Origin: Collinsella aerofaciens
GTDB lineage: Bacteria > Actinomycetota > Coriobacteriia > Coriobacteriales > Coriobacteriaceae
DNA length: 64,000 bases
Reading direction: 5' to 3'
NCBI RefSeq assembly: GCF_020181355.1
Contig: NZ_CP084004.1
Span: 1,302,001 to 1,366,000, forward strand
The notes beneath the pieces are model-generated. The model ran no database searches and was not told the origin of the DNA. It worked only from the letters and a program-made list of their open reading frames with translations. Shown piece after piece: positions 44,121 through 59,507 of this stretch (position 1 is its first letter; each line of letters starts with the position of its first letter). Position numbers and translations under genes: made by a program.

Positions 44121-44162
44121 AAGGTCAGACTAATACCAGATTGAATGGCTTAATAAGGTCAG
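44121..44162. promoter_or_regulatory. PdxR-type direct-repeat operator
   Basis: AAGGTCAG occurs at 44121-44128 and 44155-44162 in the same orientation, centre to centre 34 bp (about three helical turns), preceded each time by TAA(C/T). MocR/PdxR regulators bind direct repeats in the region shared with pdxS. Confidence 0.65.
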
Positions 44163-44173
44163 GTGATAGGCTC

Positions 44174-45613
44174 ATGCTTGACTACAATTTGGAAAAACGC
44201 GGCGAAGCATCGCTTTATGAGTATGTTTACCAGAAAATTCGAGATGATATTGTTGCTGGACGTATTGCGGCGGGGGAGCATCTTCCGTCTAAGCGCGCCT
44301 TTGCCAGTCATCTGGGAATCAGTGTCATTACCATCGAGAATGCATATAGCCAGTTACTTGCCGAGGGCTATATTTGCTCAATGCCGCGTCGTGGCTACTA
44401 CGCTTGCGAGCTTCCGGATGCACCGGTTTTGGCTTCGGCTGCGGAGGGCATCGACCGAGATGCCGCCTCTGCGGGTCCCAGCGCGCATGATGTCAACGGA
44501 CAGGTCGAGCGATTCGATGCACTTTCTCCTTCCGCTTTGGAGGCGGCGCGGCTTTGGCAAAGCGCACTACGGGCGACGCTGGCATCCGAAGATGAGCGCG
44601 AAATCTTTTCGCCCGCACCGGCGCAGGGCACCGCTCGGCTGCGACGCGCAATTGCTCACCACCTGCGTGGGACAAGGGGCATGAATGTCGATCCCAATAA
44701 CATTGTTATCGGCGCGGGCGCCCAGCTGCTCGATACCATGTTGGTTCAGTTGCTTGGCGCTGACAAGGTGTATGCCGTTGAGGACCCGGGCTATTTACGT
44801 CTGACGCGCATCTATCAGGCTATGGGCTGCAAAGTTCGACATATCCCGTTGGATGATGAGGGCGTGGACTTGAGCGCTCTGCAGAAAACCGGGACCGATG
44901 TACTTCATCTGATGCCGTCCCATCAGTATCCGACCGGCCTTGTGACGAGCATTGCGCGGCGCTATGCGCTTCTGAGCTGGTCCGCCGAGCGACCAGGTCG
45001 GTATCTCATCGAAGATGACTTTGATTGTGAGTTTCGCCTTGCCGGGAAGCCGATTCCCGCGCTCGCGTCGATCGATGCCGCCCAGTCGGTTATCTACACC
45101 AACACGTTTTCGAAGAGCCTTTCATCGGCGTTGCGTTTGGCGTACATGGTGTTGCCCGATGAGTTAATGGAGCGGTTTAGGCGCAACCTTGGTTTCTACG
45201 CCTCGTCGGTGAGCTCTGTTGATCAGGTCGCTTTGGCGCGTTTGCTGGAATCGGGTGATTACGAGCGACATGTGAACCGCGTGCGCGTTCGTGCTCGCGA
45301 GGCGCGTGATGGCCTGATGGCGCTTGTGCGGAAGGTATTTCCGGCAGGAGAGGTCTCGATCGAGCATGCAGACGCGGGCCTTTACTGTATCGTGGTTGCG
45401 GAGCGTGGAGCGGGCGGAAGCTCTTTTGTGCGGGCCCTCACGCGCTCGAGTATCCCTTTTGTCGATATCAGTGACTGTTATTGGTGTGCCGATGGCGCAT
45501 CTGTCCCTGAAAACTCAAGTCAAATTCTTGTTCAGTATGACGATTTGAGTCCAAAAGCGCTAAATACCTTGGAATCGCAGCTAATGGGAGCACTCTGCAA
45601 CCTAAGTGAGTAG
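44174..45613 (+). CDS. pdxR: MocR/PdxR family PLP-dependent regulator of pdxST
   Basis: A 479-residue GntR-aminotransferase fusion. The wHTH is YEYVYQKIRDDIVAGRIAAG with LPSKRAFASHLGISVITIE, and the aminotransferase-like domain carries the PLP Lys in YTNTFSKSLSSALRLAY. It activates pdxST when PLP is low in related bacteria. It is divergent from pdxS and preceded by direct repeats. ATG 44174 gives a natural N-terminus, with AGGTGA upstream; ATG 44141 overlaps the operator. The last three codons (Leu-Ser-Glu-stop) come from the 121-bp stop-hairpin repeat, so the natural C-terminus may have been replaced. Confidence 0.92.
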   Translation: MLDYNLEKRGEASLYEYVYQKIRDDIVAGRIAAGEHLPSKRAFASHLGISVITIENAYSQLLAEGYICSMPRRGYYACELPDAPVLASAAEGIDRDAASAGPSAHDVNGQVERFDALSPSALEAARLWQSALRATLASEDEREIFSPAPAQGTARLRRAIAHHLRGTRGMNVDPNNIVIGAGAQLLDTMLVQLLGADKVYAVEDPGYLRLTRIYQAMGCKVRHIPLDDEGVDLSALQKTGTDVLHLMPSHQYPTGLVTSIARRYALLSWSAERPGRYLIEDDFDCEFRLAGKPIPALASIDAAQSVIYTNTFSKSLSSALRLAYMVLPDELMERFRRNLGFYASSVSSVDQVALARLLESGDYERHVNRVRVRAREARDGLMALVRKVFPAGEVSIEHADAGLYCIVVAERGAGGSSFVRALTRSSIPFVDISDCYWCADGASVPENSSQILVQYDDLSPKALNTLESQLMGALCNLSE

Positions 45614-45682
45614 GCTTTTGGAACTTTGGCGACCAGGCAGTTTTGTAACAAGCTATCTACCTGCGGTTTTGAAAAGCAGGAT

Positions 45683-47188
45683 GGTAGCGCGCAGAGATGT
45701 GGTGTAAGAGGCGGGGCATGCCCCGCCTCCGCCCTTTCTTGAAAGGGAGGGGACACCGCCTAGAATTCGTCGTTGGAGTAATGAAGGTGACGAATGGAAG
45801 GAAAGGCGATGCCCCAAGAAGAGAGTGTACTGCGCCTCGGCCGCGACGAGGCCCTCGAGGCGGCGAGGCTTTGGCAGGAGTGCGGCGACGCGCGCGAGTT
45901 CGCGTGCAGGGTGCTGGGCAGCGTGATGAACGCGCTGATGGACTCCGAGGCCCAGCAGATGTGCGGCGCGAGCCGCAACGAGCGCAGCGACGGCAGGGAG
46001 AACAGCCGCAACGGCTACCGCCCCAGGTCGCTCAAGACCGCCGTGGGCGACGTGGAGCTCGAGATACCCAAGCTCAGGCACGGCACCTACTACCCCGAGG
46101 GCATGCTCGCGCGATGGTCGCGCGTCGACACCTCGGTGGCCGCCATCGTGCAGGAGATGTACGTATGCGGCGTGTCCACCCGCAAGGTCGAGCGCGTGGC
46201 GTCCAAGCTGGGCATATCCTCGCTGTCGAGCTCGGAGGTCTCGAGCCTCTGCTCCGACCTCGACGCCGAGGTGGCGGAGTTCCGCCGCCGCGACCTGTCG
46301 GGCACGCCGTGCTGCTACCTGTGGCTCGACGCCACCTACATGAGCTGCAGGGTCGGCTCGTCGGTCGTCTCGCAGGGCGTCGTGACCGCGATCGGGCTGG
46401 GCGCCGACGGGCGCAAGCACTTCCTGGGCTGCGACGTGGTCGACACCGAGAGCGAGGACTCCTGGGCGGCATTCCTCGGCGGGCTGCGCGAGCGCGGGCT
46501 GGCCGGCGTTCGCCTCGTGGTCTCCGACAGCCACGCCGGGCTCGTGGCCGCCGTCTCGCGCCTGTTCCAGGGCTGCGCCTGGCAGCGCTGCGTGACGCAC
46601 CTGCAGCGCAACCTCCAGAGCGCCTGCTCGGGCAGGCCCGAGGACTCCAAGGCGGCCGTCAGGGACCTCGTGCACGCCGCGGTCTACCAGGACGACCCCG
46701 ACCTCGCGCGCTGCGTGTGGGCCGAGGCGGCGCCCTGGGTGGCGTCGGTGTCCGCCAGGGCCGGCGAGGTCTTCGAGCAGGCCGAGGACTCCGCGCTGGC
46801 GTTCACGGCCTTCCCCAGGGCGCACTGGGCCAAGCTCCGCACCAACAACGTCCAGGAGCGCGCCAACCGCGAGATCAAGCGCCGCTACAGGGTCGTGCAG
46901 TCCTTCCCCTCGAGGGAGTCGATGCTGCGCCTGACGTGCGCGAGCCTCATGGAGACCGAGGGACAGTGGTCCCAGCAGCGCGTGTTCTCCGAGGCCTCGG
47001 CCGCCGAGGGCTTCGCCGAGCCCGCGGACAGGCCGGCCCCGACAGAGGGGAGGCGCCGCGCGCTCGGGCGGCGCGCCAGGGAGATAGTGGACGAGATAGT
47101 CGAGAGGCGCGGTCTCAAGAAGGAGTAATATCGGGACTTGCAGCGACGGACCTCAGGACGCTCTTACACCACGTCTGCGCGCGCCACC
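45683..47188 (+). mobile_element. IS256-family insertion sequence, 1506 bp
   Basis: Terminal inverted repeats of 28 bp with four mismatches: left 45683-45710, right 47161-47188, both carrying GTGGTGTAAGAG. AGCAGGAT is duplicated on both sides (45675-45682 and 47189-47196) as an 8-bp target site; the next base G also matches. One transposase gene fills it. It inserted inside the stop-hairpin repeat, so it arrived after that repeat. Confidence 0.9.
45794..47128 (+). CDS. IS256 (mutator-type) transposase
   Basis: A 444-residue DDE transposase. The catalytic triad candidates are Asp in YLWLDATYMS, Asp in VVSDSHAGL and Glu in NNVQERANREIKRR. The segment RNGYRPRSLKTAVGDVELEI and PKLRHGTYYPEGML are family signatures. 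The frame is complete without a break, so the element may still be active. GC is higher than in neighbours and codon use is extreme (almost only G/C third positions), consistent with recent arrival. ATG 45794 and ATG 45809 are both possible; the second follows AAGGAAAGG. Confidence 0.95.
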   Translation: MEGKAMPQEESVLRLGRDEALEAARLWQECGDAREFACRVLGSVMNALMDSEAQQMCGASRNERSDGRENSRNGYRPRSLKTAVGDVELEIPKLRHGTYYPEGMLARWSRVDTSVAAIVQEMYVCGVSTRKVERVASKLGISSLSSSEVSSLCSDLDAEVAEFRRRDLSGTPCCYLWLDATYMSCRVGSSVVSQGVVTAIGLGADGRKHFLGCDVVDTESEDSWAAFLGGLRERGLAGVRLVVSDSHAGLVAAVSRLFQGCAWQRCVTHLQRNLQSACSGRPEDSKAAVRDLVHAAVYQDDPDLARCVWAEAAPWVASVSARAGEVFEQAEDSALAFTAFPRAHWAKLRTNNVQERANREIKRRYRVVQSFPSRESMLRLTCASLMETEGQWSQQRVFSEASAAEGFAEPADRPAPTEGRRRALGRRAREIVDEIVERRGLKKE

Positions 47189-47270
47189 AGCAGGATGACC
47201 GGGCTGCTCGGGATGTTCAAAAAAGTCTACTCACTTGTCGCGCAAAGTTTCTGCATGAGAAAAAAATGGG

Positions 47271-47346
47271 GTTTTCAACAGAACTTCGTCCAGCTCTCGG
47301 CAAGCTTTTGGCCAGTTGGGGAGGGCTGTTGAAAACTTGGCAGTCC
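47271..47346. repeat. Inverted repeat in the leader of the nuclease-like gene
   Basis: GTTTTCAACAG (47271-47281) and CTGTTGAAAAC (47336-47346) are perfect 11-bp arms with a 54-bp loop, followed by TTGGCGCG/CGCCAA near 47361. It could regulate or mark the gene at 47420. Confidence 0.45.
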
Positions 47347-47419
47347 GTTCGGCACCATTTTTGGCGCGTTCGCGCCAATGCGTGACTGACTGGGTTGAAA
47401 TTCGTGTTTTCCTGTGCCT

Positions 47420-48547
47420 ATGAAAGATCTACTTTGTGACATATCGGCTTTTAGGTACTGGCGTTTGCCCCCTCAGGTCCGCGCTCTGTGTCCGCCGCTT
47501 CCACGACCGGAAGAAGACCGGCAGCGATATGATCTCGCCCGCAACCCGACGGCTGCGGTCGCGCTCGGTTTTCCGTTGTATACATTGGTTCAGACGAGAA
47601 ACAAACGGACTTGTCCTACCAGCATTAGGCAGCGGCTGTTCCTTGGTGAGCCCCCCAGGGAATCCGTGCTGGAAACGGAGCATGGATTTTTGATTACGTC
47701 TCCTCTACTGACGGCATTCATCATGTCGCGGCATCTGACGGATCTTCAGCTTCTTTTTGTGTTGGCGGAGATGTGCGGCCTGTTTGCGGTGTGTGCTCTG
47801 CCGGCGGCACTTGAGGCGGAGCTTACGCGTGCAATTGATTCGGGCGCGATTTCGACGACGTTGGGTTGGGTGCGCTGCCCGTCCGAGGACGGCACCGCTT
47901 CAAATTTATGGCGTCGAGACGCTTTGGTTTTGGGCAGAGACCTTGACCGTTTTTGTTCAGATGTTTGCGGGATGCGTTACGGCAATAGATTTATGGCGGT
48001 ATCGCAATTCGTTCCATTGGGTGCCGCGTCGCCTTTTGAGGTCGAGGCGTATTTGCTACTTGCACTGCCGCGATCCCTGGGAGGCGAAGGTTTTTGCGAC
48101 ATAGAGCTTAATGTTGAAGTGATGCTAGGCACAAGTGCTCGAGCGATTGTGGGAAAGTCCCGTGTATATATCGACCTACTTCTTTCTTCACCGGACGGTA
48201 GGCGACAGGTGGCCATTGAATGTCAGGGAAAGGCCTCGCACGGACGCGCAGGGGATGGCTTGCGTGACGCTGACCGCATGACGGCCCTTCAGGCCATGGG
48301 CTACGATGTGCTTCTCCTGACATACAGACAGATATCGGATGAGGATAGATTCCGCGCGATCGTTAAGGCCGTATGCAGGATGCTCGATGCTGAATATCGT
48401 GATAAAAGCTCAGATGAGCAAAGGGCTGAGGCATTACTCCGGTCTGAACTATTCGTTGACTGGACAAAATTGGGAGTAATCGACGGAAAGATGCCCGCTA
48501 GACACAAAATGGCTCGATCGTGGACGGCTGCGGTTCTAAGTGAGTAG
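47420..48547 (+). CDS. DUF559/Vsr-like putative nuclease with a long N-terminal domain
   Basis: A 375-residue protein with no confident family name. Residues 1-200 open with DISAFRYWRLPPQVRALCPP and contain LITSPLLTAFIMSRHLTD, resembling the core of AbiEi-type proteins. Residues 207-330 look like a DUF559/PD-(D/E)xK fold: SPFEVEAYLLL, Asp252 in VYIDLLL, ECQGKASHG with Glu267, and DADRMTALQAMGYDVLLLTY, matching the D...ExxG..H...D..R...L..G order. Active-site order fits, but the usual ExK/ED is ECQ here. The ATG at 47420 or GTG 47414 has no clear SD. It is flanked by two stop-hairpin repeats, and its last residues come from the second. A defence role is an inference. Confidence 0.7.
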   Translation: MKDLLCDISAFRYWRLPPQVRALCPPLPRPEEDRQRYDLARNPTAAVALGFPLYTLVQTRNKRTCPTSIRQRLFLGEPPRESVLETEHGFLITSPLLTAFIMSRHLTDLQLLFVLAEMCGLFAVCALPAALEAELTRAIDSGAISTTLGWVRCPSEDGTASNLWRRDALVLGRDLDRFCSDVCGMRYGNRFMAVSQFVPLGAASPFEVEAYLLLALPRSLGGEGFCDIELNVEVMLGTSARAIVGKSRVYIDLLLSSPDGRRQVAIECQGKASHGRAGDGLRDADRMTALQAMGYDVLLLTYRQISDEDRFRAIVKAVCRMLDAEYRDKSSDEQRAEALLRSELFVDWTKLGVIDGKMPARHKMARSWTAAVLSE

Positions 48548-48657
48548 GCTTTTAGCACTTTGGCGACCAGGCCGTTTTGCAACAAGTCATTTACCTGCGG
48601 CTTTATAAAGCAATATGGGTGGTGTGCTCGGCAAGTTCCAAAAAGTCTACTCACTTA
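48537..48657. repeat. Stop-hairpin repeat, copy 2 (121 bp)
   Basis: Begins TAAGTGAGTAGGCTTTTAGC and ends CCAAAAAGTCTACTCACTTA, with ACCTGCGG in the middle (48593-48600). The ends are inverted repeats. Its first bases form the stop of the nuclease-like gene. Gene-free sequence from here to 48723 shows nothing else. Confidence 0.9.
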
Positions 48658-48723
48658 GTTTTTGACGAGAAGCCGATGCCGAAGGCGGTCCTATTTCAGG
48701 GCGTTAACAAGTTCGTGAGGCAC

Positions 48724-48755
48724 GAAAAAGGCCCGAACCAATACGGTCCGGGCCT
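48724..48755 (-). terminator. Terminator after the rubrerythrin gene
   Basis: AGGCCCG (48729-48735) and CGGGCCT (48749-48755) form the stem. On the minus strand five T follow. Confidence 0.8.
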
Positions 48756-48789
48756 CATCGAGCTTGAGGTTATGTCTCAGGCGGTTGGC

Positions 48790-49350
48790 TTAGCCAAAGT
48801 AGCGCTTGAGCAGGCCGGCGAAAGCCTTGCCGTGGCGGGCCTCGTCGCGAGCCATCTCGTGCACGGTGTCGTGGATGGCATCGAGGCCGGCGGCCTTGGC
48901 ACGCTTGGCAAGATCGGTCTTGCCGGCGGTGGCGCCGTTCTCGGCCTCAACGCGCATCTCGAGGTTCTTCTTGGTGGAGTCGGTCACGACCTCGCCCAGG
49001 AGCTCGGCGAACTTGGCGGCATGCTCGGCCTCCTCGTGGGCAGCCTTTTCCCAGTACAGGCCGATCTCGGGATAGCCCTCGCGATGAGCGACGCGAGCCA
49101 TGGCCAGGTACATACCGACCTCAGAGCACTCGCCCTCAAAGTTGGCGCGCAGGTCGGCAACGATGTCCTCAGAGACACCCTCCATCTTGGCGACGCCCAC
49201 GACGTGCTCGGCGGCCCACTCGAGCTGTCCCTCCTCCTGCTTCAGGAAACGAGAACCGGGAACGCCGCACTGGGGGCACTTAAAATCCTCGGGCAGCTGG
49301 TCGCCGTCGAACTCTTCCACATAACCGCAAACGGGGCAAACAAACTTCAT
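48790..49350 (-). CDS. Reverse rubrerythrin (N-terminal rubredoxin)
   Basis: A 186-residue peroxide-reducing protein of anaerobes. The rubredoxin iron site CPVCGY...CPQCGVPG is at residues 5-31, ahead of the di-iron domain, the reverse of classical rubrerythrin. The di-iron ligands lie in [37 protein letters not shown] and [12 protein letters not shown], following the ExxH pattern. It reduces hydrogen peroxide using NADH via electron carriers. ATG 49350 follows AAAGGA. Stands alone; fits an obligate anaerobe. Terminator at 48724. Confidence 0.93.
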
Positions 49351-49508
49351 GATTCGATCCTTTCGATCGATGGCGATTGCGCGCTCGTCCGGTCCCGTAA
49401 GGGCCCTCTCCGGACGTGCGTCTTGACGAGTTCTATTATCCATAAATGCAACCAAATGTGAAGCCTATTAGGAATGATTTTTAATAAAACAATTTTGAGA
49501 TATGAAGA

Positions 49509-49588
49509 TGTTGATTGATTAACGATTGGCAGGCCGTCTTTGACCGTCGCTGAGTACAATCGGTCGAGCAAATGTTGACCAATCAACA
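49509..49588. promoter_or_regulatory. Paired TGTTGA operators upstream of the dehydrogenase pair
   Basis: TGTTGATTGATTAACG (49509-49524) and TGTTGACCAATCAACA (49573-49588) share TGTTGA-N4-T(C/T)AAC(A/G), 64 bp apart. The second is a perfect dyad. A TACAAT box at 49554-49559 lies between them. The pair could bind a repressor at two sites; no regulator gene is adjacent. Remainder of the 256-bp gap has one GC hairpin (CGTCCGG/CCGGACG). Confidence 0.55.
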
Positions 49589-49606
49589 AATGAGGGAGTT
49601 TCCTTT

Positions 49607-50827
49607 ATGCATCTAGCCCGTCGTGCCTGGTGCCGAACATATCAGACGGTTTTTCGCATTGCATTGCCGATCCTGCCCTATACCGAGCCGCACATTTTAG
49701 AGCATGCCGAGGATGTGCCCACAGTGCTTCAAAAGCGCTCGATCCAGAAGGTCCTTATCGTGACGGATCCCGGCATTGCCCGTCTGGGGCTCACGGCATC
49801 ACTCGAGCGTGCGGTTACGGCTCAGGGGATTGGTGTTACGGTCTATGCCGAAACGCGTGCGAACCCTACGGTCTCAAACGTGGAGGAAGCGGCGTCCCTG
49901 TATCGAGAGAACGACTGCCAGGCCATTATCGGCTTTGGCGGAGGATCGGCCATGGACTGTGCCAAGGGCGTGGGGGCACGTATCGCGCAGCCAAACAAGC
50001 CCATCAACAAGATGCGTGGCCTGTTGCGCGTCCACCGTCTCCTGCCGCTGCTTATTGCGGTTCCCACTACCGCCGGTACGGGAAGCGAAGTCACGCTCGC
50101 GGCGGTTATCACCGATGACGAGACGCACTATAAATACCCCATTAACGACTTTGTGCTTATCCCGCGCCTTGCGGTGCGCGACCCCGAGTTTACGCGCGGC
50201 CTGCCCGCCTCCATTACGGGGCAGACGGGGATGGACGCCCTGACGCATGCCGTCGAGGCCTTTATCGGGCGAAGCACCACGCCCTATACGCGCAAGATGG
50301 CGCGACAGGCGGTTCAGCTCATCCACGACAATTTGCTCGAGGCCTATGAGCATGGCGACAACATGCACGCACGTCGCAATATGCTTGCGGCGGCGTATAA
50401 GGCGGGTGTTGCCTTTACGCGCTCCTATGTTGGATACGTTCATGCCATCGCACACAGCTTGGGCGGGCGTTACGGGATTCCGCACGGCTTGGCTAACGCC
50501 ATTATCCTGCCGCATATGCTTCGCGCCTATGGCGAAGCTGCTGCTCCCAAGCTCGCCGATCTCGCCCGCATGGCCGGCATCGCGCCGGTTAACGCGCAGG
50601 ACAGCCTGGCGGCCGAGGCCTTTATCGATTGGGTCGATCGAATGAACGCCGCCTTGGACATTCCCAAGTATGTGACGGGTATTCGCCGCTCCGATATTCC
50701 GCAAATGGCGGCACATGCCGATGCCGAGGCCAATCCGCTGTACCCCGTTCCGCTTTTGATGGACCGCCTGGAGCTCGAGCATATGTACGAAGTTGTTGCA
50801 GGTGGTATGTTTGAGGACGAGAACTAG
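49607..50827 (+). CDS. Iron-containing alcohol dehydrogenase
   Basis: A 406-residue group III dehydrogenase. NAD-binding region GFGGGSAMDCAKGVG is near residue 108, VPTTAGTGSEVT near 153, and metal ligands are the Asp in GQTGMDALTHAVEAF and three His in YVHAIAHSLGGRYGIPHGLAN. Unlike the butanol dehydrogenases it starts with about 30 extra residues. ATG follows GAGGGAG. The aldehyde dehydrogenase gene begins 8 bp after its stop. Together they could interconvert an alcohol, aldehyde and acid; the substrate is unknown. Confidence 0.9.
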   Translation: MHLARRAWCRTYQTVFRIALPILPYTEPHILEHAEDVPTVLQKRSIQKVLIVTDPGIARLGLTASLERAVTAQGIGVTVYAETRANPTVSNVEEAASLYRENDCQAIIGFGGGSAMDCAKGVGARIAQPNKPINKMRGLLRVHRLLPLLIAVPTTAGTGSEVTLAAVITDDETHYKYPINDFVLIPRLAVRDPEFTRGLPASITGQTGMDALTHAVEAFIGRSTTPYTRKMARQAVQLIHDNLLEAYEHGDNMHARRNMLAAAYKAGVAFTRSYVGYVHAIAHSLGGRYGIPHGLANAIILPHMLRAYGEAAAPKLADLARMAGIAPVNAQDSLAAEAFIDWVDRMNAALDIPKYVTGIRRSDIPQMAAHADAEANPLYPVPLLMDRLELEHMYEVVAGGMFEDEN

Positions 50828-50835
50828 GAGGGTCC

Positions 50836-52215
50836 ATGAACACCGAGGAAATTGCGCGCATCGTCGGCGATCAGCGCACCTACTTTAAGACGCACGCTAC
50901 GTTTGATGTCGATGCTCGCCGCCGCGCACTGGTGCGCCTGCGCGATGCGGTGCGGGCCCACGAGGCCGATATTGCCCATGCGCTCAAGACCGATTTGGGA
51001 AAGTCGCATGACGAGGCCTATATGTGCGAGATCGGCACGTCGCTTTCCGAGATTCGTCATCACATCGCTCATGTGGCTCGATGGAGTCGTCCGCGCCTGC
51101 GTCCGTGTGACCTCGCTAACGCCGTGAGCGTGTGCAAAACGCAAGCCGTGCCCTATGGCGTCACGCTTATCATGGCGCCCTGGAACTATCCGTTTTTGCT
51201 GACGCTCGAGCCACTCGCCGGGGCTCTTGCCGCGGGCAATACCGTGGTCATCAAGCCGAGTGCCTATGCTCCGGCATCGAGTGCGGTGCTCAAGCAAATC
51301 TGTGAAGAGGCATTTGATCCGCGCCTGGTGACGGTTGTCGAGGGCGGGCGCGCCGAAAACCAAGCGCTGCTCGATGAGTGCTGGGACAAGATCTTCTTTA
51401 CCGGTAGTGTTCCGGTTGGCAAGCTCGTCATGGAGCGCGCGAGTAAAAACCTTACGCCCGTGACGCTTGAGCTGGGCGGAAAGAGCCCCTGTGTCGTGGA
51501 TGCGACGGCAAACCTGAAGGTCGCGGCGCGGCGTATCGCATTTGGTAAATGGCTCAACGTGGGCCAGACCTGCGTGGCGCCCGACTACCTGCTGGTCGAC
51601 GTGCGCGTGCACGATGAGCTGTTGGGTCTCATCAAGGAGGAGGTCCGTCGCATGTTTGGCGAGCACCCGCTCGACAACGAGGACTACGGTCATATTGTCA
51701 ACGCCAAGCATTTTGCGCGCGTGCGCGGGCTGATCGACCCCGATAAGGTTGTGCTGGGAGGAGCGGCGCGCGAGTCGTCGCTCAAAATTGAGCCGACGAT
51801 CCTAGACGGCGTGGCGCCTGAGGACGCCGTGATGCAGGAGGAGATTTTCGGCCCCATCTTGCCGGTGCTGACGTTTGAGAGCCTAGACGAGGCCGAAGCG
51901 TTTATTACGGATCGTCCGACGCCGCTGGCCCTGTATATCTTTAGTCAGGATCGCGCGGTTCAGCAGCGCTTTGTGCGCTACGTGCCCTTTGGCGGCGGCT
52001 GCGTCAACGACACGATCATGCATCTGGCTACGAGCCATATGGGCTTTGGCGGCATGGGCGCGAGCGGCATGGGGCAGTACCATGGCCGCGAGAGCTTCGA
52101 TACGTTTAGCCATAAGAAGAGCATCGTGAACAAGGCAACGTGGCTGGACGTGCCGTTTCGGTATGCGCCCTACGCAAGCTGGAAGCACAAATTTGTGCGC
52201 ATGTTTGTGCATTAG
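50836..52215 (+). CDS. Class 3-type aldehyde dehydrogenase
   Basis: A 459-residue NAD(P)-dependent aldehyde dehydrogenase. The Rossmann FTGSVPVGKLVM, catalytic Glu in TLELGGKSP near residue 212 and catalytic Cys in NVGQTCVAPDYLL near 246 are present. The short N-terminus and C-terminal FSHKKSIVNK segment are those of the class 3 (ALDH3-like) subfamily, which oxidises medium-chain and aromatic aldehydes. ATG follows AGGAGGG, overlapping the intergenic 8 bp. Second gene of the dehydrogenase operon. A hairpin follows at 52220. Confidence 0.93.
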   Translation: MNTEEIARIVGDQRTYFKTHATFDVDARRRALVRLRDAVRAHEADIAHALKTDLGKSHDEAYMCEIGTSLSEIRHHIAHVARWSRPRLRPCDLANAVSVCKTQAVPYGVTLIMAPWNYPFLLTLEPLAGALAAGNTVVIKPSAYAPASSAVLKQICEEAFDPRLVTVVEGGRAENQALLDECWDKIFFTGSVPVGKLVMERASKNLTPVTLELGGKSPCVVDATANLKVAARRIAFGKWLNVGQTCVAPDYLLVDVRVHDELLGLIKEEVRRMFGEHPLDNEDYGHIVNAKHFARVRGLIDPDKVVLGGAARESSLKIEPTILDGVAPEDAVMQEEIFGPILPVLTFESLDEAEAFITDRPTPLALYIFSQDRAVQQRFVRYVPFGGGCVNDTIMHLATSHMGFGGMGASGMGQYHGRESFDTFSHKKSIVNKATWLDVPFRYAPYASWKHKFVRMFVH

Positions 52216-52219
52216 GAAA

Positions 52220-52257
52220 TGGCAGGTAATACGAACAAGTGTTCCTATTACCTGTCA
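52220..52257 (+). terminator. Hairpin after the aldehyde dehydrogenase gene
   Basis: TGGCAGGTAAT and ATTACCTGTCA pair (one G-U), enclosing GAACA/TGTTC. T-tract is weak (CATTAACG). Confidence 0.6.
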
Positions 52258-52318
52258 TTAACGTTAGACTACTGCTATGGGGTACGGATGGGCCAACTCC
52301 CTTTAGAAGGGAATTGGT

Positions 52319-52402
52319 ATGAACGTAAGCGATGTTATTTCGTTACTGGCGTTGTTAATCGCGGCTATCGAACTCGGCCTGTTTATCGGCCGAATGAAAT
52401 AG
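52319..52402 (+). CDS. 27-aa Hol-Tox-like hydrophobic peptide (candidate type I toxin)
   Basis: Too short for normal gene calling. The peptide MNVSDVISLLALLIAAIELG with a C-terminal LFIGRMK has one membrane helix and a basic end, like the putative holin-like toxins of type I toxin-antitoxin loci. AGAAGGG is nine bases before ATG. After the stop, GCCG(N18)CGGC can form a hairpin, as often seen at such toxin 3' ends, and the following 90 bp hold no other gene. An antisense RNA could not be proved by eye. The region to 52637 has no further feature. Confidence 0.5.
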   Translation: MNVSDVISLLALLIAAIELGLFIGRMK

Positions 52403-52637
52403 CCGCCCCCGCGTAAGCGAAGACGGCCACTTCTCACGATGAAAACGTGTATCGGAGTTGGCAAGACCCGCTGCCACGGGTGCCATCCGTACCCCTATCT
52501 TATCTGCAAGCGCTCTGTCTCGCAAGCGTTGCGGCAACTGGGTGAAAGGCGCGAGCGGGTGAATTCGTGTCCGCACGGGCCCGTAAACTTCTCAGTGAGG
52601 TTAAGCGTTGGTTTATCCGGCCGTTAGAGGAGTTGCC

Positions 52638-52964
52638 ATGTACGAGCCTTCACGTGTTCTTCTGTCATTTCATATCGCAGGATTTCAATATGCCGACGGC
52701 GCTTTGGTCCTAGGCGATCTTAAAGTGGGCGATAAACTGACGCTGTGCGCCGAGCGCGATAATCCCCATGATCCCGAGGCGGTTGCGATTTACTGTGGCA
52801 ACACCAAGCTTGGCTATGTTCCGGGAAACGAGGTCGGCCCGCTGTCCTTGATGATGTATTACGGCCATGAGGACGTATTTGAGGCCCGCGTGCAACAGGT
52901 TGCTCCCGAGCGCAGCCCGTGGCATCAGGTGCGTGTTGGACTCTACGTGGTGGATGCACGCTAA
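52638..52964 (+). CDS. HIRAN domain protein
   Basis: A 108-residue protein consisting only of a HIRAN domain: ILLSFHIAGFQY-like opening (LLSFHIAGFQYADG), LKVGDKLTLCAERDNPHDPE and AVAIYCGNTKLGYVPGNE in order. HIRAN modules recognise DNA 3' ends in helicases such as HLTF; here the domain stands alone. ATG 52638 follows GGAGTTG; the extension upstream is not supported. Next gene starts 18 bp later and may be co-transcribed. Function is unknown. Confidence 0.8.
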   Translation: MYEPSRVLLSFHIAGFQYADGALVLGDLKVGDKLTLCAERDNPHDPEAVAIYCGNTKLGYVPGNEVGPLSLMMYYGHEDVFEARVQQVAPERSPWHQVRVGLYVVDAR

Positions 52965-52982
52965 TCGGTAAGGGAGACTGCC

Positions 52983-53162
52983 ATGTTTGATGACGACGAC
53001 CAGTTCGATCTGACAGACGATCCGTTTGAGTGGGATATGCTACTCGATGACGATGAGTTGGAGCGGGATTGTAAGAAGCGGCAGGATAAGAATACCCAGG
53101 GTGACGCTTCGAAAAAGCAAGACAAGCGCCGCCGCGGACTGTTCGGCGGGTTCTTTGGATAA
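52983..53162 (+). CDS. Small protein with acidic head and basic tail, 59 aa
   Basis: The strong site AAGGGAG lies ahead of ATG 52983. The 59-residue product starts MFDDDDQFDLTDDPFEWDML (highly acidic), then turns to a Lys/Arg-rich segment KKQDKRRRGLFGGFFG. No family is recognised. Charge segregation suggests nucleic acid mimicry or a partner-binding tail. It follows the HIRAN gene by 18 bp and precedes a phosphoesterase, so the three may form a unit. Coding use matches neighbours. Confidence 0.65.
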   Translation: MFDDDDQFDLTDDPFEWDMLLDDDELERDCKKRQDKNTQGDASKKQDKRRRGLFGGFFG

Positions 53163-53228
53163 CCGCCGCATCGCTGCGTCTGTATACTTAGCACGAGTTG
53201 AACACGTTGCGAAATGAGGACAGAGACG

Positions 53229-53774
53229 ATGATGTGGTTTACCGCCGATCTGCACCTGGGCGATACGAATATCTTGCACGACATGGACCGGCCGTTTGGC
53301 TCGGTCGAGGAGATGAATCGCAAGGTCATCGATGCCATCAATGAGTGCGTGGCTGTGGATGACCGTCTCTACATTCTGGGTGACTTTACCTATCGTTTGC
53401 CCCTGGCGGAGGCGGTGCGCCTGCGCGAGCGTATTGCCTGCCAAAACGTGACGCTCATCCGTGGTAACCATGACGGCGATTGGGAAGATCCCGACGTGCC
53501 GCAAATTTGGGAAGACGTGCGTGATTATCTGGAGATTGCCCCCGGCTATGCCAAGGGCCATCGTCTGGTTATGAGCCACTACCCCATGCTTAGCTGGAAT
53601 GGCAAGGCGCGTGGCGCCATCATGCTGCACGGGCATATCCACAGCAGGGGAGACCGCACCAACGCGCGCAACCGCGATCGCGAGCGCCCCATTTACCGCT
53701 ACGATGTGGGCCTCGACGCCAACGAGTACAAGCCCGTAAGCCGCGACCAGATTCTTAGCTTCTTTGGGCTATAG
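53229..53774 (+). CDS. Calcineurin-like metallophosphoesterase
   Basis: A 181-residue phosphoesterase with the metal motifs ADLHLGD (near residue 6), GDFTYR, GNHD and LHGHIHS (around residues 56, 80 and 135), which hold two metal ions. This short form belongs to the YfcE/MJ0936-like or phage-type group acting on phosphodiesters. ATG 53229 is four bases from a start at 53232 and 15 from ATG 53214; GAGGAC is the likely SD. Substrate unknown. A repeat follows the stop. Confidence 0.85.
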   Translation: MMWFTADLHLGDTNILHDMDRPFGSVEEMNRKVIDAINECVAVDDRLYILGDFTYRLPLAEAVRLRERIACQNVTLIRGNHDGDWEDPDVPQIWEDVRDYLEIAPGYAKGHRLVMSHYPMLSWNGKARGAIMLHGHIHSRGDRTNARNRDRERPIYRYDVGLDANEYKPVSRDQILSFFGL

Positions 53775-53782
53775 GGTGCCAG

Positions 53783-53820
53783 AACCACCACAAAGGGGAC
53801 AGTGAACTTTTGTGGTGGTT
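53783..53820. repeat. Palindromic repeat, GGGAC-core family, ACCACCAC arms
   Basis: AACCACCACAAA (53783-53794) and TTTGTGGTGGTT (53809-53820) are perfect 12-bp arms around GGGGACAGTGAACT. A diverged relative is at 54617, and related arms occur at 18807. Confidence 0.85.
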
Positions 53821-53841
53821 TTCACATAGATTGGAGTCGTT

Positions 53842-54606
53842 ATGAAGCAATTGCTTATTCGTGCCGATGATATCGGGTATTCGTATGCCGTTGACTTAGG
53901 GATTGCTCGCAGCGTCAACGAGGGCTTGGTGCGCTCGGCGGGCCTTATGCCAAATATGCCCGAGGCCGAGCGTGGGTGGTCGCTCGTGGCGGATGCCGAT
54001 ATTGCAGTGGGCCAGCATACCAACGTGTGCCTGGGCAAGCCGTGCGCCGATCCGGCGCTCATCCCGAGCATGCTCAACGAGAGCGGCGAGTTCCATAGCA
54101 GCCGTACCTTCCGTGAGCATTTTAAGCGCGGTGAGGAGCTGATAGACTTCGACGAGGCCTGCATCGAGATCCGCGCACAGCACGACCGTTTTGTCGAGAT
54201 TGTGGGCCGCGAGCCCGATTACTTTGAGGCCCATGCCGTCATGAGCGAAAACCTTAACCGAGCGATCTCGGCGGTTGCCCAGGAGCTGGGCCTTAAGGAG
54301 CAAAAGGCAAGCTTCGACCCCACGGCGGTGGTGCATTGCGGAGATACCGACCTGCGCATGGTGATGCATTCGATGGAGCCGGGCTACGAACCCAAGGACT
54401 CGATTATGCAGACGGTTCGCGAGATATCCGACGGCGAGACGGTCGTTTTTGTGTGTCACCCGGGCTATCTTGATCGCTTTATCCTCGAGAACAGCTCGCT
54501 TACGACTGATCGTACCAAGGAAGTCGATGCGCTGATCGATCCTGAGCTGCGCGCTTGGCTCGAGTCTCAACCCGATCTTCGCCTGATCGACTATCGCGAC
54601 CTGTAA
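53842..54606 (+). CDS. ChbG/YdjC family carbohydrate deacetylase
   Basis: A 254-residue deacetylase of the YdjC/ChbG family that removes acetyl groups from chitobiose-type sugars. Metal and catalytic residues lie in RADDIGYS (residues 7-14), GQHTNVCLGKP near residue 57, EAHAVMSE near 130 and CHPGYLD near 211. Length matches the family. ATG follows TTGGAGT. No chitobiose PTS or phosphorylase gene is adjacent, so the substrate is open. Confidence 0.88.
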   Translation: MKQLLIRADDIGYSYAVDLGIARSVNEGLVRSAGLMPNMPEAERGWSLVADADIAVGQHTNVCLGKPCADPALIPSMLNESGEFHSSRTFREHFKRGEELIDFDEACIEIRAQHDRFVEIVGREPDYFEAHAVMSENLNRAISAVAQELGLKEQKASFDPTAVVHCGDTDLRMVMHSMEPGYEPKDSIMQTVREISDGETVVFVCHPGYLDRFILENSSLTTDRTKEVDALIDPELRAWLESQPDLRLIDYRDL

Positions 54607-54616
54607 GAGCTCAAGC

Positions 54617-54687
54617 CAACACAAGGGGAACAGGCACCTTTGCGGTGGTTCTGGCGCCGTTGCCATTATGGTGGCGGCGCCTTTTTT
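54617..54687 (+). terminator. Decayed repeat plus terminator after chbG-like gene
   Basis: CAACACAAGGGGAACAGGCA followed by CCTTTGCGGTGGTT is a diverged GGGAC-family palindrome. Next to it GGCGCCG (54653-54659) and CGGCGCC (54675-54681) with TTTTTT form a strong terminator. Confidence 0.8.
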
Positions 54688-54745
54688 GTCCGTGCGGCGC
54701 GGTAGAGTGTAGGCGGTTGAAATTTGCGTCCATCGAGGAGCTGTT

Positions 54746-56503
54746 ATGAACGAGATCAAGTGCCCGCATTGCGGCGAAGTTTTTAAGGTCGATGCGTCCG
54801 GCTATGCGGACATCGTCAAACAGGTGCGCGATGCTGAGTTCTCGCGCGACCTGGACGAGCGTGTGAAGGCGGTCCAGCGCGAGGGCGAGCAGGCGCTGGA
54901 GCTTGAGCGCTCGCGTTCGACGGCTGCCCTGCAGGAGGCGGAGTCTCAGCGCGATGCACAACTCGTTGAGCAGAAGAATGCTGCGGCTCGGGAGTTGGCA
55001 CAAGAGGTCGCCAAGCGCGATGCCGAGCTTGTCGAGCTGCGCGCCAAGCTCGAGGGCGCTGCCGCAGAGCGCGAGAGCGCAAGCCAGCGTGCGGCGGTTG
55101 AGGCCCGTGCCGATGCTCAGAAGGAGAATGCTGAGCTTCAGCGCGAGATCGACAATTTGCGTGCGCAGCTGGGGCGCAAAGATGACGAAGCCAAGCTTGC
55201 CGAGTCGGCGGCGCGCAACGCTGCTCAAAACGATTTAGCTGCACGTGATGCCCAGATTGCCGAGCTGCAGGCCAGGCTTGCCGCAGCGGACAAGGCTCAG
55301 GAGATGGCGCTTGCCGCTGCCGCGGCAGAGTCGCAGCGTGATCTCGATGCCGCTCGCAGCGAGGCCGAACGTGCACTTGCTGACTACCGCGCGACGGTAC
55401 AGGAGAAGTTTTCCGCCGCAAAGGTACAATCTGAGCAAGAGGCTGAGGGTCTGCGTGCCCAGCTGCGCGAGCAGGAGCTGATGGCAAAAATGAACCTGTC
55501 GGAGGCAGTCGCCGCGGCGGAGCGAGAGCGCGACGAGGCACGTGCGAAACTGACGAGTGAGCTGGCAGTGCGCGATTCGCGCGAGGAACAGGCAAAGGCG
55601 GCACATGAGCTCGAGCTTGCTCAAGCCAAGCGTGCGAGCGATGAGCTGATCCGCTACAAGGATGAAGAGATTGAGCGCCTTAAGGACATGAAGGTCCGCC
55701 TGTCCACCAAGATGGTGGGCGAGTCGCTCGAGCAGCACTGCGAGACCGAGTTTAACCGTCTGCGCATGACGGCGTTTCCTAACGCGTACTTCGAGAAAGA
55801 TAACGATGCGTCCGAGGGTACCAAGGGCGACTTTATCTTCCGCGAGTGCGACGCGAGCGGCAACGAGATCATCTCGATCATGTTCGAGATGAAAAACGAG
55901 AACGACGAGACCGCGACCAAGCACAAGAACGAGGACTTCTTTAAGAAGCTCGACCACGATCGCCGACAGAAGGGCTGTGAGTATGCAGTGCTCTGCACCC
56001 TGCTGGAGCCCGAGAGCGAGCTCTATAACGCGGGTATTGTCGACGTGAGTTACCGCTATGAGAAGATGTACGTGATCCGCCCGCAATTCTTCATTCCCAT
56101 GATCACGCTGCTGCGCAACGCCGCCATGGGTTCGCTGCGCTATAAGCAGGAGCTGGCGGAGTACAAACAGCAGAATATCGATGTTACGAACTTCGAAGCC
56201 AAGATGGAGAAGTTCAAGGACGGCTTCTCGCGCAACTACAACCTGGCGAGTAAGCAGTTCGAGTCGGCGATTAAGGAGATCGATGCCGCCATTAAGCAGC
56301 TCGAGAAGACCAAGGACGACCTGCGTCGCAGTACCGAGAATCTGCGTCTGGCCCACAACAAAGCCGATGAACTCACCATTCGAAAGCTCACGTGGGGCAA
56401 CAAGACCATGAAGGCTGCCTTTGACGAGGCACGTGAGGCTGCGCCGGAGACAGGTGATGAACCAGCCGAGGCGGATTCGTATGAGGTCGAGGATGCCGAG
56501 TAA
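54746..56503 (+). CDS. DUF2130 protein with long coiled coil
   Basis: A 585-residue protein. It begins MNEIKCPHCGEVFKVDASGY, a CPHC zinc-type start, then has about 270 residues of Ala/Glu/Arg coiled coil, and a C-terminal DUF2130 domain with EGTKGDFIFRECDASGNEI, MFEMKNENDET and KLDHDRRQKGCEYAVL. The order Asp, then E-M-K, fits a PD-(D/E)xK-like nuclease core. ATG follows GAGGAGC. Ends with a disordered acidic tail. Many genomes have a lone copy; role is not established. Confidence 0.85.
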   Translation: MNEIKCPHCGEVFKVDASGYADIVKQVRDAEFSRDLDERVKAVQREGEQALELERSRSTAALQEAESQRDAQLVEQKNAAARELAQEVAKRDAELVELRAKLEGAAAERESASQRAAVEARADAQKENAELQREIDNLRAQLGRKDDEAKLAESAARNAAQNDLAARDAQIAELQARLAAADKAQEMALAAAAAESQRDLDAARSEAERALADYRATVQEKFSAAKVQSEQEAEGLRAQLREQELMAKMNLSEAVAAAERERDEARAKLTSELAVRDSREEQAKAAHELELAQAKRASDELIRYKDEEIERLKDMKVRLSTKMVGESLEQHCETEFNRLRMTAFPNAYFEKDNDASEGTKGDFIFRECDASGNEIISIMFEMKNENDETATKHKNEDFFKKLDHDRRQKGCEYAVLCTLLEPESELYNAGIVDVSYRYEKMYVIRPQFFIPMITLLRNAAMGSLRYKQELAEYKQQNIDVTNFEAKMEKFKDGFSRNYNLASKQFESAIKEIDAAIKQLEKTKDDLRRSTENLRLAHNKADELTIRKLTWGNKTMKAAFDEAREAAPETGDEPAEADSYEVEDAE

Positions 56504-56520
56504 GGCATAGCGTTTAGTGC

Positions 56521-56566
56521 AAAAGCGGGGCCGCTGGCGATATTGCCAACGGCCCCGCTTCGTTTC
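56521..56566. terminator. Bidirectional terminator
   Basis: AAGCGGGGCCG (56523-56533) and CGGCCCCGCTT (56550-56560) are perfect, with inner GGC/GCC, between convergent DUF2130 and helicase genes. Confidence 0.88.
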
Positions 56567-56582
56567 GTTCCAGTATGTTCGG

Positions 56583-59264
56583 TTAGTCCTCGAGCAGGTC
56601 CTCGATAAAACCGACGCGGTAGTTTTTGAAGATGACCTCGCCGCCGTCTTGCGTGGCGTCCAGATCGACATCGCCCATGATGCCAAAGTCGTGGTCGCCT
56701 TCCTCGTCGGCAAAGATCTGATGCACGTGCCACACGTGCGCGGTCTTCTCATCGGACTCATCGATGGAAAACATCGCGGCACTGCGGGCATCTCCGTCGG
56801 TGAGGATCTCCTCGTGCTGTTCGTGGTAGGCATCGAGCGCCTTTTGCCAGCGGATCTCGCTCATGCCCCAGTCGTCGTCGAGTTCGCCCAGGTCGCGAAC
56901 GTGCTCGCGAGCGGCAAGGGTTACGCGGCGGAAGAGCGCGTTGCGCACCAACAGCGTGCAGCCGCGGCGGTCCGCCACGACCTCGTCGATGCCCTGCGGC
57001 GGCGCGGCGTCGAGGGCTGCCGGGTTGCCGGCGTTCTCCCACTCGTCCACCAGGCTCGAGTCCACCGAGCGCACCACAAAGCCCAGCCACGAGATAATGT
57101 CGCGCAGGCGCTCGTCGCGTTTCTCGATGGGTACGGTGCGGTCGAGCGAACGGTAGGCCTCTGCCAGGTAGCGCAGCAAAATGCCCTCGGAGCGGGCGAT
57201 GCCGAGCTTTTGAATGTAACCCTTAAAATCGCTCGCGCTTTCCAGCATATCGCGCAGGACGCTCTTGGGAGAGAGCTGGTAGTCGTTTGCCCAGGGTACT
57301 TCCTGGCAGTACTTGTCAAAGGCAGCGTCGAGCAAATCCTCGAGCGGCTTTTCGTACGTGACGTCTTGAATGCGCTCCAGACGTTCCTCATATTCGACGC
57401 CGTCAGCCTTCATTTCGGCCATCGCGCGGTCGCGTGCGGTGCGCTCCTGTGCACGCAGCACCTGCTTGGGATCCTCGAGCGTTGCCTCGACCATCGAGAT
57501 CAGATCCATGGTATAGGTCTCGCTCTCGGGGTCGAGCAGCTCCAACGCGGCAAGCAAGAACGGCGAGAGCGGCTGATCGAGCGCGAAGTCCTCGGGCAGA
57601 TCGACCGTCAGCGCGTAGTCGATGTCCGGCGCGGCGTCAGCCGGAGCGTCGGGTGCGGGCGGCACCTCGGTGCGCACGACGACGCCGGAGTCGATGAGCG
57701 TAGCGAAGATTTCGTCGGCGCGAACCTCGAGCTTGGCCTTTTCCTCGGGAGTCTGCAGACTCGTCTCGATGAGGTCGTGCACGCGGGCTCGGGCATCGCC
57801 GCCCTGCTCGACCACGCTAATCACCATGGAGTGCGTGATGCGCAGGCGCGGCTTGAGCGTCTCGGGCTGCGTCTCGATCAGGCGCTCAAAGGTCTGCTTG
57901 TTCCAGGTGACAAAGCCCTCGGGGGCCTTCTTCTTTTTAATCTTGCGGAGCTTTTTAGGATCGTCGCCCGCCTTGGCCATGAGCTTGGCGTTCTCGATCT
58001 CGTGCTCCGGGGCCTCGGCGATGACCATACCCTCGGTGTCAAAGCCCGAGCGACCGGCGCGACCAGCAATCTGATGGAACTCACGGGCGCGCAGACGACG
58101 CATCTTGTAGCCGTCGAACTTGGTGAGCGCGGTGAGGACCACGGTGTGGATGGGCACGTTGATGCCGACGCCGAGCGTATCGGTGCCGCAGATGACGGGC
58201 AGTAGGCCCTGCTGCGCTAAGCGCTCGACCAGCAGGCGATAGCGCGGCAGCATGCCAGCATGGTGCACGCCGACGCCGCAGCCGAGCAAGCGCTTGAGGA
58301 TCTTGCCGAAGGCCGTTGAGAAGCTCGTCCCCTTTGCCGCGTCTTTGATGGCTTCGCGCTGCTCCTTGCTGGCGATGCCAAAATTGGCGAGCGACTGTGC
58401 CGTCGCAAGGGCGGCATCCTGGCTAAAGTGCACGATATAGAGCGGGGCCTCGCCGCGGCGCATGGCGAGCTCGACCGTGCCCTCGAGGGAGGTCGTCACA
58501 TAGTCGTAGCTCAGCGGAACAGGACGCGGGGCGTCGACAACCAAGTCGCAAGCAGCGCCGGTGTGCTCCTCGAGTGAGGCGGCGATGGCAGTGACATCGC
58601 CGAGCGTGGCGCTCATGAGCATAAACTGCGTGTGGGGCAGGGTGAGCAGCGGCACCTGCCAGGCCCAACCGCGATCGGGGTCGGCAAAGTAGTGGAACTC
58701 GTCCATGGCCACGCAGCCCACATCGGCGTCCTCACCCTCGCGCAGCGCGTCGTTGGCAAGGATTTCGGCCGTGCAGCAGATGACGGGCGCCTTGGTGTTG
58801 ATATGCGTATCGCCGGTGATCATGCCGACGTTATCGCGGCCGAGCACCTGCACAAGGTCGAAAAACTTTTCGCTGACCAGAGCCTTGATGGGGGCCGTGT
58901 AATAACAGCGCTTGCCCTGCGCCATGCCCATAAAGAGCATGCCCAGCGCGACGAGCGATTTACCCGATCCGGTCGGTGTTCCCAAAATGACGTGGTCGCC
59001 GGCAGCCAGGTCCATGAGGGCCTCTTCTTGGTGGTCCCACAGCTCAATGCCACGGTCGCTCGTCCATTCAAAGAAGCGTTCGAAGGCCTGATCGGGCGTG
59101 AGCCATGGTTCGGGCTCGCTGCCGTCCTCGGGCTCCCACCAGGTGGGGGAGAGCGCGCCGAGTGAGCCGAACTCTGCCTCGGTTCCCGTGCCGCCCGAGA
59201 ATGAGCTGGCGGCGCCGGCGCCGGAGACGGTGCTGGCGGCGGTATCTGTCGTGGTCTGTGCCAT
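56583..59264 (-). CDS. Ski2-like DEAD/DEAH helicase with DUF3516
   Basis: An 893-residue superfamily 2 helicase. Walker A is GTPTGSGKSLVALG near residue 95, the DExH box is DEFHYF near 187, SAT is LMSATLGD, and motif VI is QIAGRAGRSGFD. The C-terminal 350 residues form the DUF3516 domain of actinobacterial Ski2/Mtr4-like RNA helicases, probably acting in RNA turnover. The start ATG 59264 has only a weak GAGAAAG; the frame stays open for 57 codons upstream but runs into a stop-hairpin repeat. An N-terminal Ser/Gly/Ala-rich tail is likely disordered. Confidence 0.92.
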   Translation of the reverse strand: MAQTTTDTAASTVSGAGAASSFSGGTGTEAEFGSLGALSPTWWEPEDGSEPEPWLTPDQAFERFFEWTSDRGIELWDHQEEALMDLAAGDHVILGTPTGSGKSLVALGMLFMGMAQGKRCYYTAPIKALVSEKFFDLVQVLGRDNVGMITGDTHINTKAPVICCTAEILANDALREGEDADVGCVAMDEFHYFADPDRGWAWQVPLLTLPHTQFMLMSATLGDVTAIAASLEEHTGAACDLVVDAPRPVPLSYDYVTTSLEGTVELAMRRGEAPLYIVHFSQDAALATAQSLANFGIASKEQREAIKDAAKGTSFSTAFGKILKRLLGCGVGVHHAGMLPRYRLLVERLAQQGLLPVICGTDTLGVGINVPIHTVVLTALTKFDGYKMRRLRAREFHQIAGRAGRSGFDTEGMVIAEAPEHEIENAKLMAKAGDDPKKLRKIKKKKAPEGFVTWNKQTFERLIETQPETLKPRLRITHSMVISVVEQGGDARARVHDLIETSLQTPEEKAKLEVRADEIFATLIDSGVVVRTEVPPAPDAPADAAPDIDYALTVDLPEDFALDQPLSPFLLAALELLDPESETYTMDLISMVEATLEDPKQVLRAQERTARDRAMAEMKADGVEYEERLERIQDVTYEKPLEDLLDAAFDKYCQEVPWANDYQLSPKSVLRDMLESASDFKGYIQKLGIARSEGILLRYLAEAYRSLDRTVPIEKRDERLRDIISWLGFVVRSVDSSLVDEWENAGNPAALDAAPPQGIDEVVADRRGCTLLVRNALFRRVTLAAREHVRDLGELDDDWGMSEIRWQKALDAYHEQHEEILTDGDARSAAMFSIDESDEKTAHVWHVHQIFADEEGDHDFGIMGDVDLDATQDGGEVIFKNYRVGFIEDLLED

Positions 59265-59386
59265 ATGGTTGCTTTCTCTCGCGATTGTCCGCCAACTATT
59301 ATGGCGTAGCGGCGGTGCGGGGTGCCAGCGCGCGAGAAAATGCAGGAAATGGGCGTTCTGCCCAGCCGTTTGGTGCAGTTGCCAGC

Positions 59387-59507
59387 TAAGTGAGTAGACT
59401 TTTTGCAATATCGCGAGCACATGGCTTTTGCGCAAGAGCTCTACCTGCGGTTTTAGTTTTCGTTATGCGGGTTGTGCTTGGCTATTGCAAAAAAGTCTAC
59501 TCACTTA
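59387..59507. repeat. Stop-hairpin repeat, copy 3 (121 bp)
   Basis: Begins TAAGTGAGTAGACTTTTTGC and ends GCAAAAAAGTCTACTCACTTA. Here the arms pair over about 35 bp with few mismatches, ACCTGCGG is in the middle, and the copy is complete. It occupies most of the 309-bp gap 59265-59573 between trmB (minus) and the helicase (minus). Confidence 0.92.

Follow-up and report, generated by a model that had tools for sequence, protein, structure and literature searches.

The stretch of DNA analysed here (the window), 64,000 nucleotides of the Collinsella aerofaciens contig NZ_CP084004.1, carries three copies of a 121-bp palindromic repeat. The repeat is real, and its form is ordinary. The family to which it belongs is strongly linked to a family of restriction-fold-like nuclease genes, which are accompanied by repeats with matching arms; within the literature searched, this nuclease-palindrome link is new. 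Each nuclease gene has its own matching repeat; it is therefore probable that the enzyme uses the repeats or spreads them. The data are best read as nuclease-driven spread in trans, although this reading is unproven, and we consider it rather probable that small non-autonomous palindromes and a restriction-fold-like nuclease acting on its own element and spreading its copies constitute a two-part system.

The association is seen most clearly from the side of the nuclease. All-against-all BLAST of element neighbourhoods returned the nuclease only as a small cluster, and a phmmer search with the window protein (377 amino acids from GTG, 375 from ATG at 47420) recovered homologues at five further element loci, representing three independent places. 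When short homologues are counted, a profile of four nuclease sequences has matches in every one of 42 Collinsella genomes. Flanks were read for 70 of at least 77 full-length Collinsella homologues, and an element recognized by covariance model R2 lies no more than 400 bp away in 53 of these 70 (21 on both sides and 32, including L401, on one side), compared with 1 of 20 shorter homologues, a set that is not a clean negative. Three of the seven further full-length homologues have an adjoining element by position. Since many of the 70 homologues are orthologous, clusters were counted at 70% identity: 26 of the 29 have an R2 element, and two more have a palindrome. Among the 17 homologues without an R2 element, three lie at contig ends, and 11 of the remaining 14 were inspected, with palindromes seen, some of them with imperfect arms (L454 is doubtful). 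A previous reading made from the sequence alone (the sequence-only reading) had noted the nuclease-like gene of the window only as adjoining the repeats; its family is tied to the elements. It should be noted that the training copies of R2 include the nuclease-linked L029, L063, L150, L159, L160, L167, and L206, although the model was built before the link was known.

A direct search for arms (at least 18), in which the truncated L409 was entered with wrong coordinates, was positive for 57 of the 70 full-length homologues and 7 of the 20 shorter ones; random positions were positive in 4 of 60 cases. Four of the seven arm-positive shorter homologues, two of these four being orthologous, have a CCTGC-like centre and look like distant members; thus, the link may extend past the full-length group. 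In the reverse direction, the nuclease is present in 10 of 130 element-centred loci. One of these ten (L288) is from another genus of the same family, and there elements lie on both sides of the gene, the second being cut by the end of the stretch. The element is located on the 5' side of the nuclease gene in some lineages and on the 3' side in others (e.g., L310 and L317). The nuclease is under purifying selection (ratio of non-synonymous to synonymous substitution rates, dN/dS, of 0.18-0.37 in seven comparisons), and its D, E, and H residues are invariant in 29 of 29 representatives.

The arms of the elements agree with the nuclease that they accompany. In nine two-element nuclease loci, one per cluster, arm identity is 0.90 within loci and 0.39 between them (0 of 10,000 permutations), and over 26 clusters arm distance tracks nuclease distance (Mantel r 0.21, p 0.0006); element length shows only a weak relation to nuclease distance (p 0.10). 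The agreement extends to dispersed copies: in seven genomes, 33 of 58 have the arm of a resident nuclease locus, compared with 16 of 58 that match an arm from the six other genomes. The resident matches are distributed as 7/12 in the host genome of the window (G000), 3/4 in G005, 4/5 in G016, 2/2 in G044, 5/20 in G046, 11/12 in G050, and 1/3 in G054. Within G000, a nuclease locus belongs to each of three arm or length types. Another possibility is that the repeats are ordinary miniature inverted-repeat transposable elements (MITEs) of an undetected conventional transposase, with nuclease genes as chance neighbours or frequent passengers. Terminal inverted repeats, intergenic sites, and subfamilies with uniform arms are what would be expected of MITEs; however, the nuclease link of the full-length homologues far exceeds that of the shorter set, the centre is conserved across lineages with different ends, and in G000 the two arm types examined were found only as element-sized pairs, apart from a copy split by an insertion sequence (IS), and never as the ends of a longer element. 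This alternative appears improbable.

The element is nearly fixed in length, at approximately 118-121 bp; less common classes lie near 128 and 138 bp. A pattern scan of genome contigs, which may omit records close to that of the window, yielded 64 stretches of the window type, all titled Collinsella. Among 86 extracted copies (intact arms were selected in both the scan and the extraction), 82 measure exactly 119 bp from AAGTGAG to CTCACTT, and the 86 form about eight groups as judged by flanks common to different species. Covariance model R1, built from 24 copies, has matches in 39 of 43 Collinsella genomes, and R2, built from 63 diverse copies, has matches in 33 of 149 Coriobacteriia genomes, which belong to only two families; many copies had been anticipated, and the idea that only three exist is thereby excluded. 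Phages yielded no match to the element, nor did a pattern scan of viral contigs. A phage or plasmid origin was rejected; the sole match in a plasmid collection is a Collinsella record, NZ_OY725717.1, listed as C. aerofaciens plasmid 6, which is 899,693 bp long, carries rho and argS, and is probably a piece of a chromosome.

Copies from other lineages keep the length, the inner inverted motif (GAGTAGAC...GTCTACTC), and the centre ACCTGCGGTTTT, whereas the outer arms, despite near-perfect pairing, are wholly different in sequence between lineages. Arm pairing holds in 96.6% of cells over 63 copies, and each of the 14 pairs shows two-sided changes, so that the expected compensatory changes are indeed present; the inner motif pairs in 79.2%. 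The arms frequently run approximately 10 bp past the 119-bp unit. Comparison of 14 copy 3 orthologues, found by flanking DNA and thus without selection for intact arms (14 genomes with near-full alignment), revealed invariance in 43 of 50 columns of the arms and centre and in 158 of 258 columns of the interior and flanks (p 0.0006), which bears out the description of a discrete non-coding unit with kept ends and a varied interior. The spacing of these parts changes in steps. In 152 copies with a recognizable centre, the distance from the centre to the left end is 55-57 bp in 137, 66-67 bp in 10, and 77 bp in 2 (four long-class copies being scored at the first of their centres), and the right side of the centre spans 62-65 bp in 146 copies. 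The 138-bp class has two centres, at 56 and 78, 22 bp apart (L320-L323, L313, and L314, in G007 and G000). Spacing that shifts by roughly one helical turn at a time points to duplex DNA within a protein complex. In G007, a gene whose product resembles a membrane protein lies between two 138-bp copies, and no nuclease was found linked to them.

It is reasonable to propose the following course of events. A nuclease gene would have a copy of its own element on one or both sides, and dispersed copies would have the same outer arms. The nuclease might bind its own element through the arms, in duplex form, with the ends and the centre held in a complex that requires fixed helical spacing; it would then cut, and repair or strand transfer could give rise to new copies elsewhere. 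Selection would keep the nuclease gene in its place, as with RAYT genes in REPIN-RAYT systems, whereas copies would be expected to persist chiefly where disturbance is least, away from promoters. The sharing of arms around diverged interiors suggests movement: in 210 same-arm pairs, which were picked for similar arms, identity is 0.89 for the arms and 0.56 for the interiors. In a comparison of G000 with G007 by eye, whole blocks differ, some of them bounded by elements, and at one site different elements lie between similar outer arms. A 6.2-kb block between two G000 elements is missing in G007 (829.5-836.5 kb in G000 vs. 1094.9-1095.7 kb in G007), with one break at an element arm end.

Several observations weigh against nuclease-driven spread. 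The match of the nuclease-like protein to the restriction-fold family MTES_1575 is weak (E 2e-6, below the Pfam cut-off). In G046, 15 of 20 dispersed copies, with AAATGC-type arms, have no detected partner nuclease, nor does the 138-bp class of G000, and G008, G022, and G023 are rich in copies and contain only short homologues. Empty sites, which had been suggested as a check, were not found in clean form: at the compared polymorphic loci there is neither a clean empty site nor a target duplication, and the differences exceed the element, comprising whole intergenic stretches. For example, the G000 copy at 1016 kb is present in five genomes and absent from another 15, with a difference of approximately 500 bp, and G043 and G051 lack copy 3 together with approximately 100 bp of flank. 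An excess of TTTT close to element ends, considered below, also counts on this side, as does the occurrence of several copies in the same place across species, which equally fits a function in place. Alternatively, the nuclease-like protein might now be a regulator or chromosome organiser, the flanking elements its operators, and the dispersed sites selected where they are. Such a role would agree with the retention of places, with the arms and centre being the most conserved parts of the copy 3 locus, with the helical spacing, and with the proximity of elements to the nuclease gene on its 5' or 3' side depending on lineage. Nonetheless, we regard it as unlikely, because the nuclease residues are invariant, elements avoid divergent (promoter) regions, and arms change wholly between lineages while the anatomy is kept.

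The position of the elements relative to genes, based on our own gene calls, was compared with expectations derived from gaps of 150 bp or longer. Of 105 diverged copies, 8 had no called neighbour and were excluded; among the 97 retained, adjacent copies have their gene pair in common. Convergent genes flank 36 copies (20.7 expected), tandem genes 50 (47.1 expected), and divergent genes 11 (29.2 expected). The proposed preference for gene 3' ends thus holds as a convergent excess and a divergent deficit, but the majority of copies lie beyond the stop codon rather than overlapping it. The terminal repeat of the window contains TAA, TGA, and TAG in three frames, as described, and three-frame stops occur in the left 22 nt of 12 of 18 copies of the window type. 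However, none of 146 other-lineage copies has them (approximately 1% is expected from shuffles); because the outer arms differ completely between lineages, three-frame stops are peculiar to the lineage of the window, and a stop-codon device was rejected outside it.

TTTT within 20 nt outside the 119-bp unit was found at 94 of 328 ends, compared with 30 of 328 at 21-40 nt (p 1.5e-10), an excess of which part may be extended arm sequence; most ends have no TTTT within 20 nt. A terminator effect of some copies is therefore possible. That the repeats as a whole serve at gene ends as RNA hairpins or as terminators of transcription in both directions is, in our view, very doubtful. Their predicted folds are stable (z -2.8 to -7.3 in six strands), and the compensatory changes, the convergent excess, and the T-runs are consistent with such a function. 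Yet arm mismatches in 164 copies (236 minus near-identical ones) comprise 57 G-T and 46 A-C (p 0.32); thus, the wobble bias that selection for an RNA stem would produce is absent from both strands, which leaves an RNA stem unsupported. Spacing changes by helical turns, and neither a conserved centre nor a cognate nuclease is needed for termination. No Rfam family was matched at gathering score in window positions 40000-64000, and ten element loci gave only sub-threshold matches, all outside elements; the Rfam 'Collinsella-1' RNA gave no match.

To our knowledge, REPIN-RAYT is the only well-worked enzyme pairing for short palindromic repeats. That system comprises a single-copy enzyme gene bordered by palindromes, dispersed palindromes that match the enzyme, several pairs per genome, co-evolution, and intergenic location (PMC3116915, PMC8266576). 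The Collinsella pairs resemble REPIN-RAYT in these respects; the bordering palindromes and their fit to their own enzyme were both tested and seen here. They differ in that the enzyme is a restriction-fold-like nuclease and not HUH/Y1, and in that the element is approximately 120-140 bp long with a conserved asymmetric centre. Six genomes (G001, G005, G046, G048, G055, and G057) have elements and no Y1_Tnp match, so a RAYT/Y1 transposase was rejected as the mobiliser; together with the non-HUH enzyme, this sets the family outside REPIN-RAYT. Y1_Tnp matches occur in 36 of 42 Collinsella genomes, many in open frames of 250-350 amino acids, and a separate RAYT-type system may coexist in the genus.

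ERIC, Correia, and RUP are MITE-like short intergenic palindromes of near-constant size that occur in tens of copies. The present elements are similar in all these respects, but here the ends vary while the centre is constant, a cognate nuclease family is linked, and no duplication or partner transposon was found. I-Bth0305I is a Vsr-like (EDxHD) homing endonuclease, and the best PDB sequence match of the nuclease profile is 3r3p, 'Mobile intron protein', although at E 0.38 this is not significant; unlike in such systems, there is no intron, and the dispersed unit is a non-coding palindrome instead of the nuclease gene. The window protein is also a weak match for DUF559, has no Y1_Tnp match, and matches nothing in NCBIfam or PADLOC. 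Among open-licence papers, neither these repeats nor a comparable pairing of nuclease and palindrome was found described, and a term search of PMC3733652 gave none of six Coriobacteriia genera. The broader proposition is that mobile palindromes are spread in trans by PD-(D/E)XK or Vsr-like nucleases independently of REPIN-RAYT, with arms and specificity co-evolving fast around an invariant central site, across Collinsella and with elements in two Coriobacteriales families; we hold this tentatively, at slightly less than an even chance. How short palindromic repeats spread and persist in bacteria is an open question for most repeat families. If the proposition is true, a second enzyme-palindrome pairing, involving an unrelated nuclease, would show the same arrangement arising independently in a genus common in the human gut. 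The approximately 28 diverged nuclease-palindrome pairs of Collinsella offer a set in which joint change of a nuclease and its DNA site can be studied.

All three 121-bp copies lie in the window where the sequence-only reading had located them (Table 1). TAAGTGAGTAG is exact at 45603(+), 48537(+), 48647(-), 59387(+), and 59497(-), with one mismatch at 47227(-); at up to two mismatches, only these six matches occur in the window, where approximately five are expected by chance, a rate offset by five of the six being exact and by the 121-bp pairing. ACCTGCGGTTTT at up to one mismatch has four matches against 0.23 expected. G000, a 2.28-Mb genome of the C. aerofaciens complex, contains seven copies of the window arm type, corresponding to 14 matches of a 17-base end pattern (a control pattern gave 0). 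As claimed, pdxR (44141-45613) and the nuclease-like gene end with Leu-Ser-Glu-stop inside left arms, and copy 3 adjoins the trmB 3' end, starting 66 bp past its stop codon (trmB 59574-60413, minus strand); it also lies on the 5' side of the helicase gene, which is on the minus strand. Other, unrelated intergenic repeat families were noted at L027:2028-2150 and 2180-2240 (near 1016 kb in G000), with matches at many places in Collinsella genomes.

Table 1. Repeat copies, their parts, and associated features in the window
Feature	Position	Strand	Remarks
Copy 1, left piece	45603..45683	+	left arm, left inner motif, and centre ACCTGCGGTTTT at 45659-45670
IS within copy 1	~45684..47188	+	boundaries by eye
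Copy 1, right piece	47198..47237	+	with right arm
Nuclease-like gene	47414..48547	+	between copies 1 and 2; weak MTES_1575 match, family linked to elements
Copy 2	48537..48657	+	intact; left arm contains final codons and stop of the nuclease-like gene
Copy 3	59387..59507	+	intact; between trmB and helicase gene
Copy 3, left outer arm	59387..59404	+	TAAGTGAGTAGACTTTTT
Copy 3, left inner motif	59414..59421	+	CGAGCACA; inverted partner 59473-59481
Copy 3, asymmetric centre	59443..59454	+	ACCTGCGGTTTT
Copy 3, right outer arm	59490..59507	-	

The IS that splits copy 1 carries a Mutator-type transposase gene (45794-47128, Transposase_mut, E 3.5e-99), and AGCAGGATG is found on either side of it, at 45675-45683 and 47189-47197. 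The copy 3 orthologue L371 (genome G011) has an insertion of approximately 1.3 kb in the element centre, with a readable open frame reminiscent of an IS110-type transposase, and the contigs of G010 and G042 break at the place of this insertion. Since both copy 1 and L371 carry insertions, the elements may themselves be IS targets.

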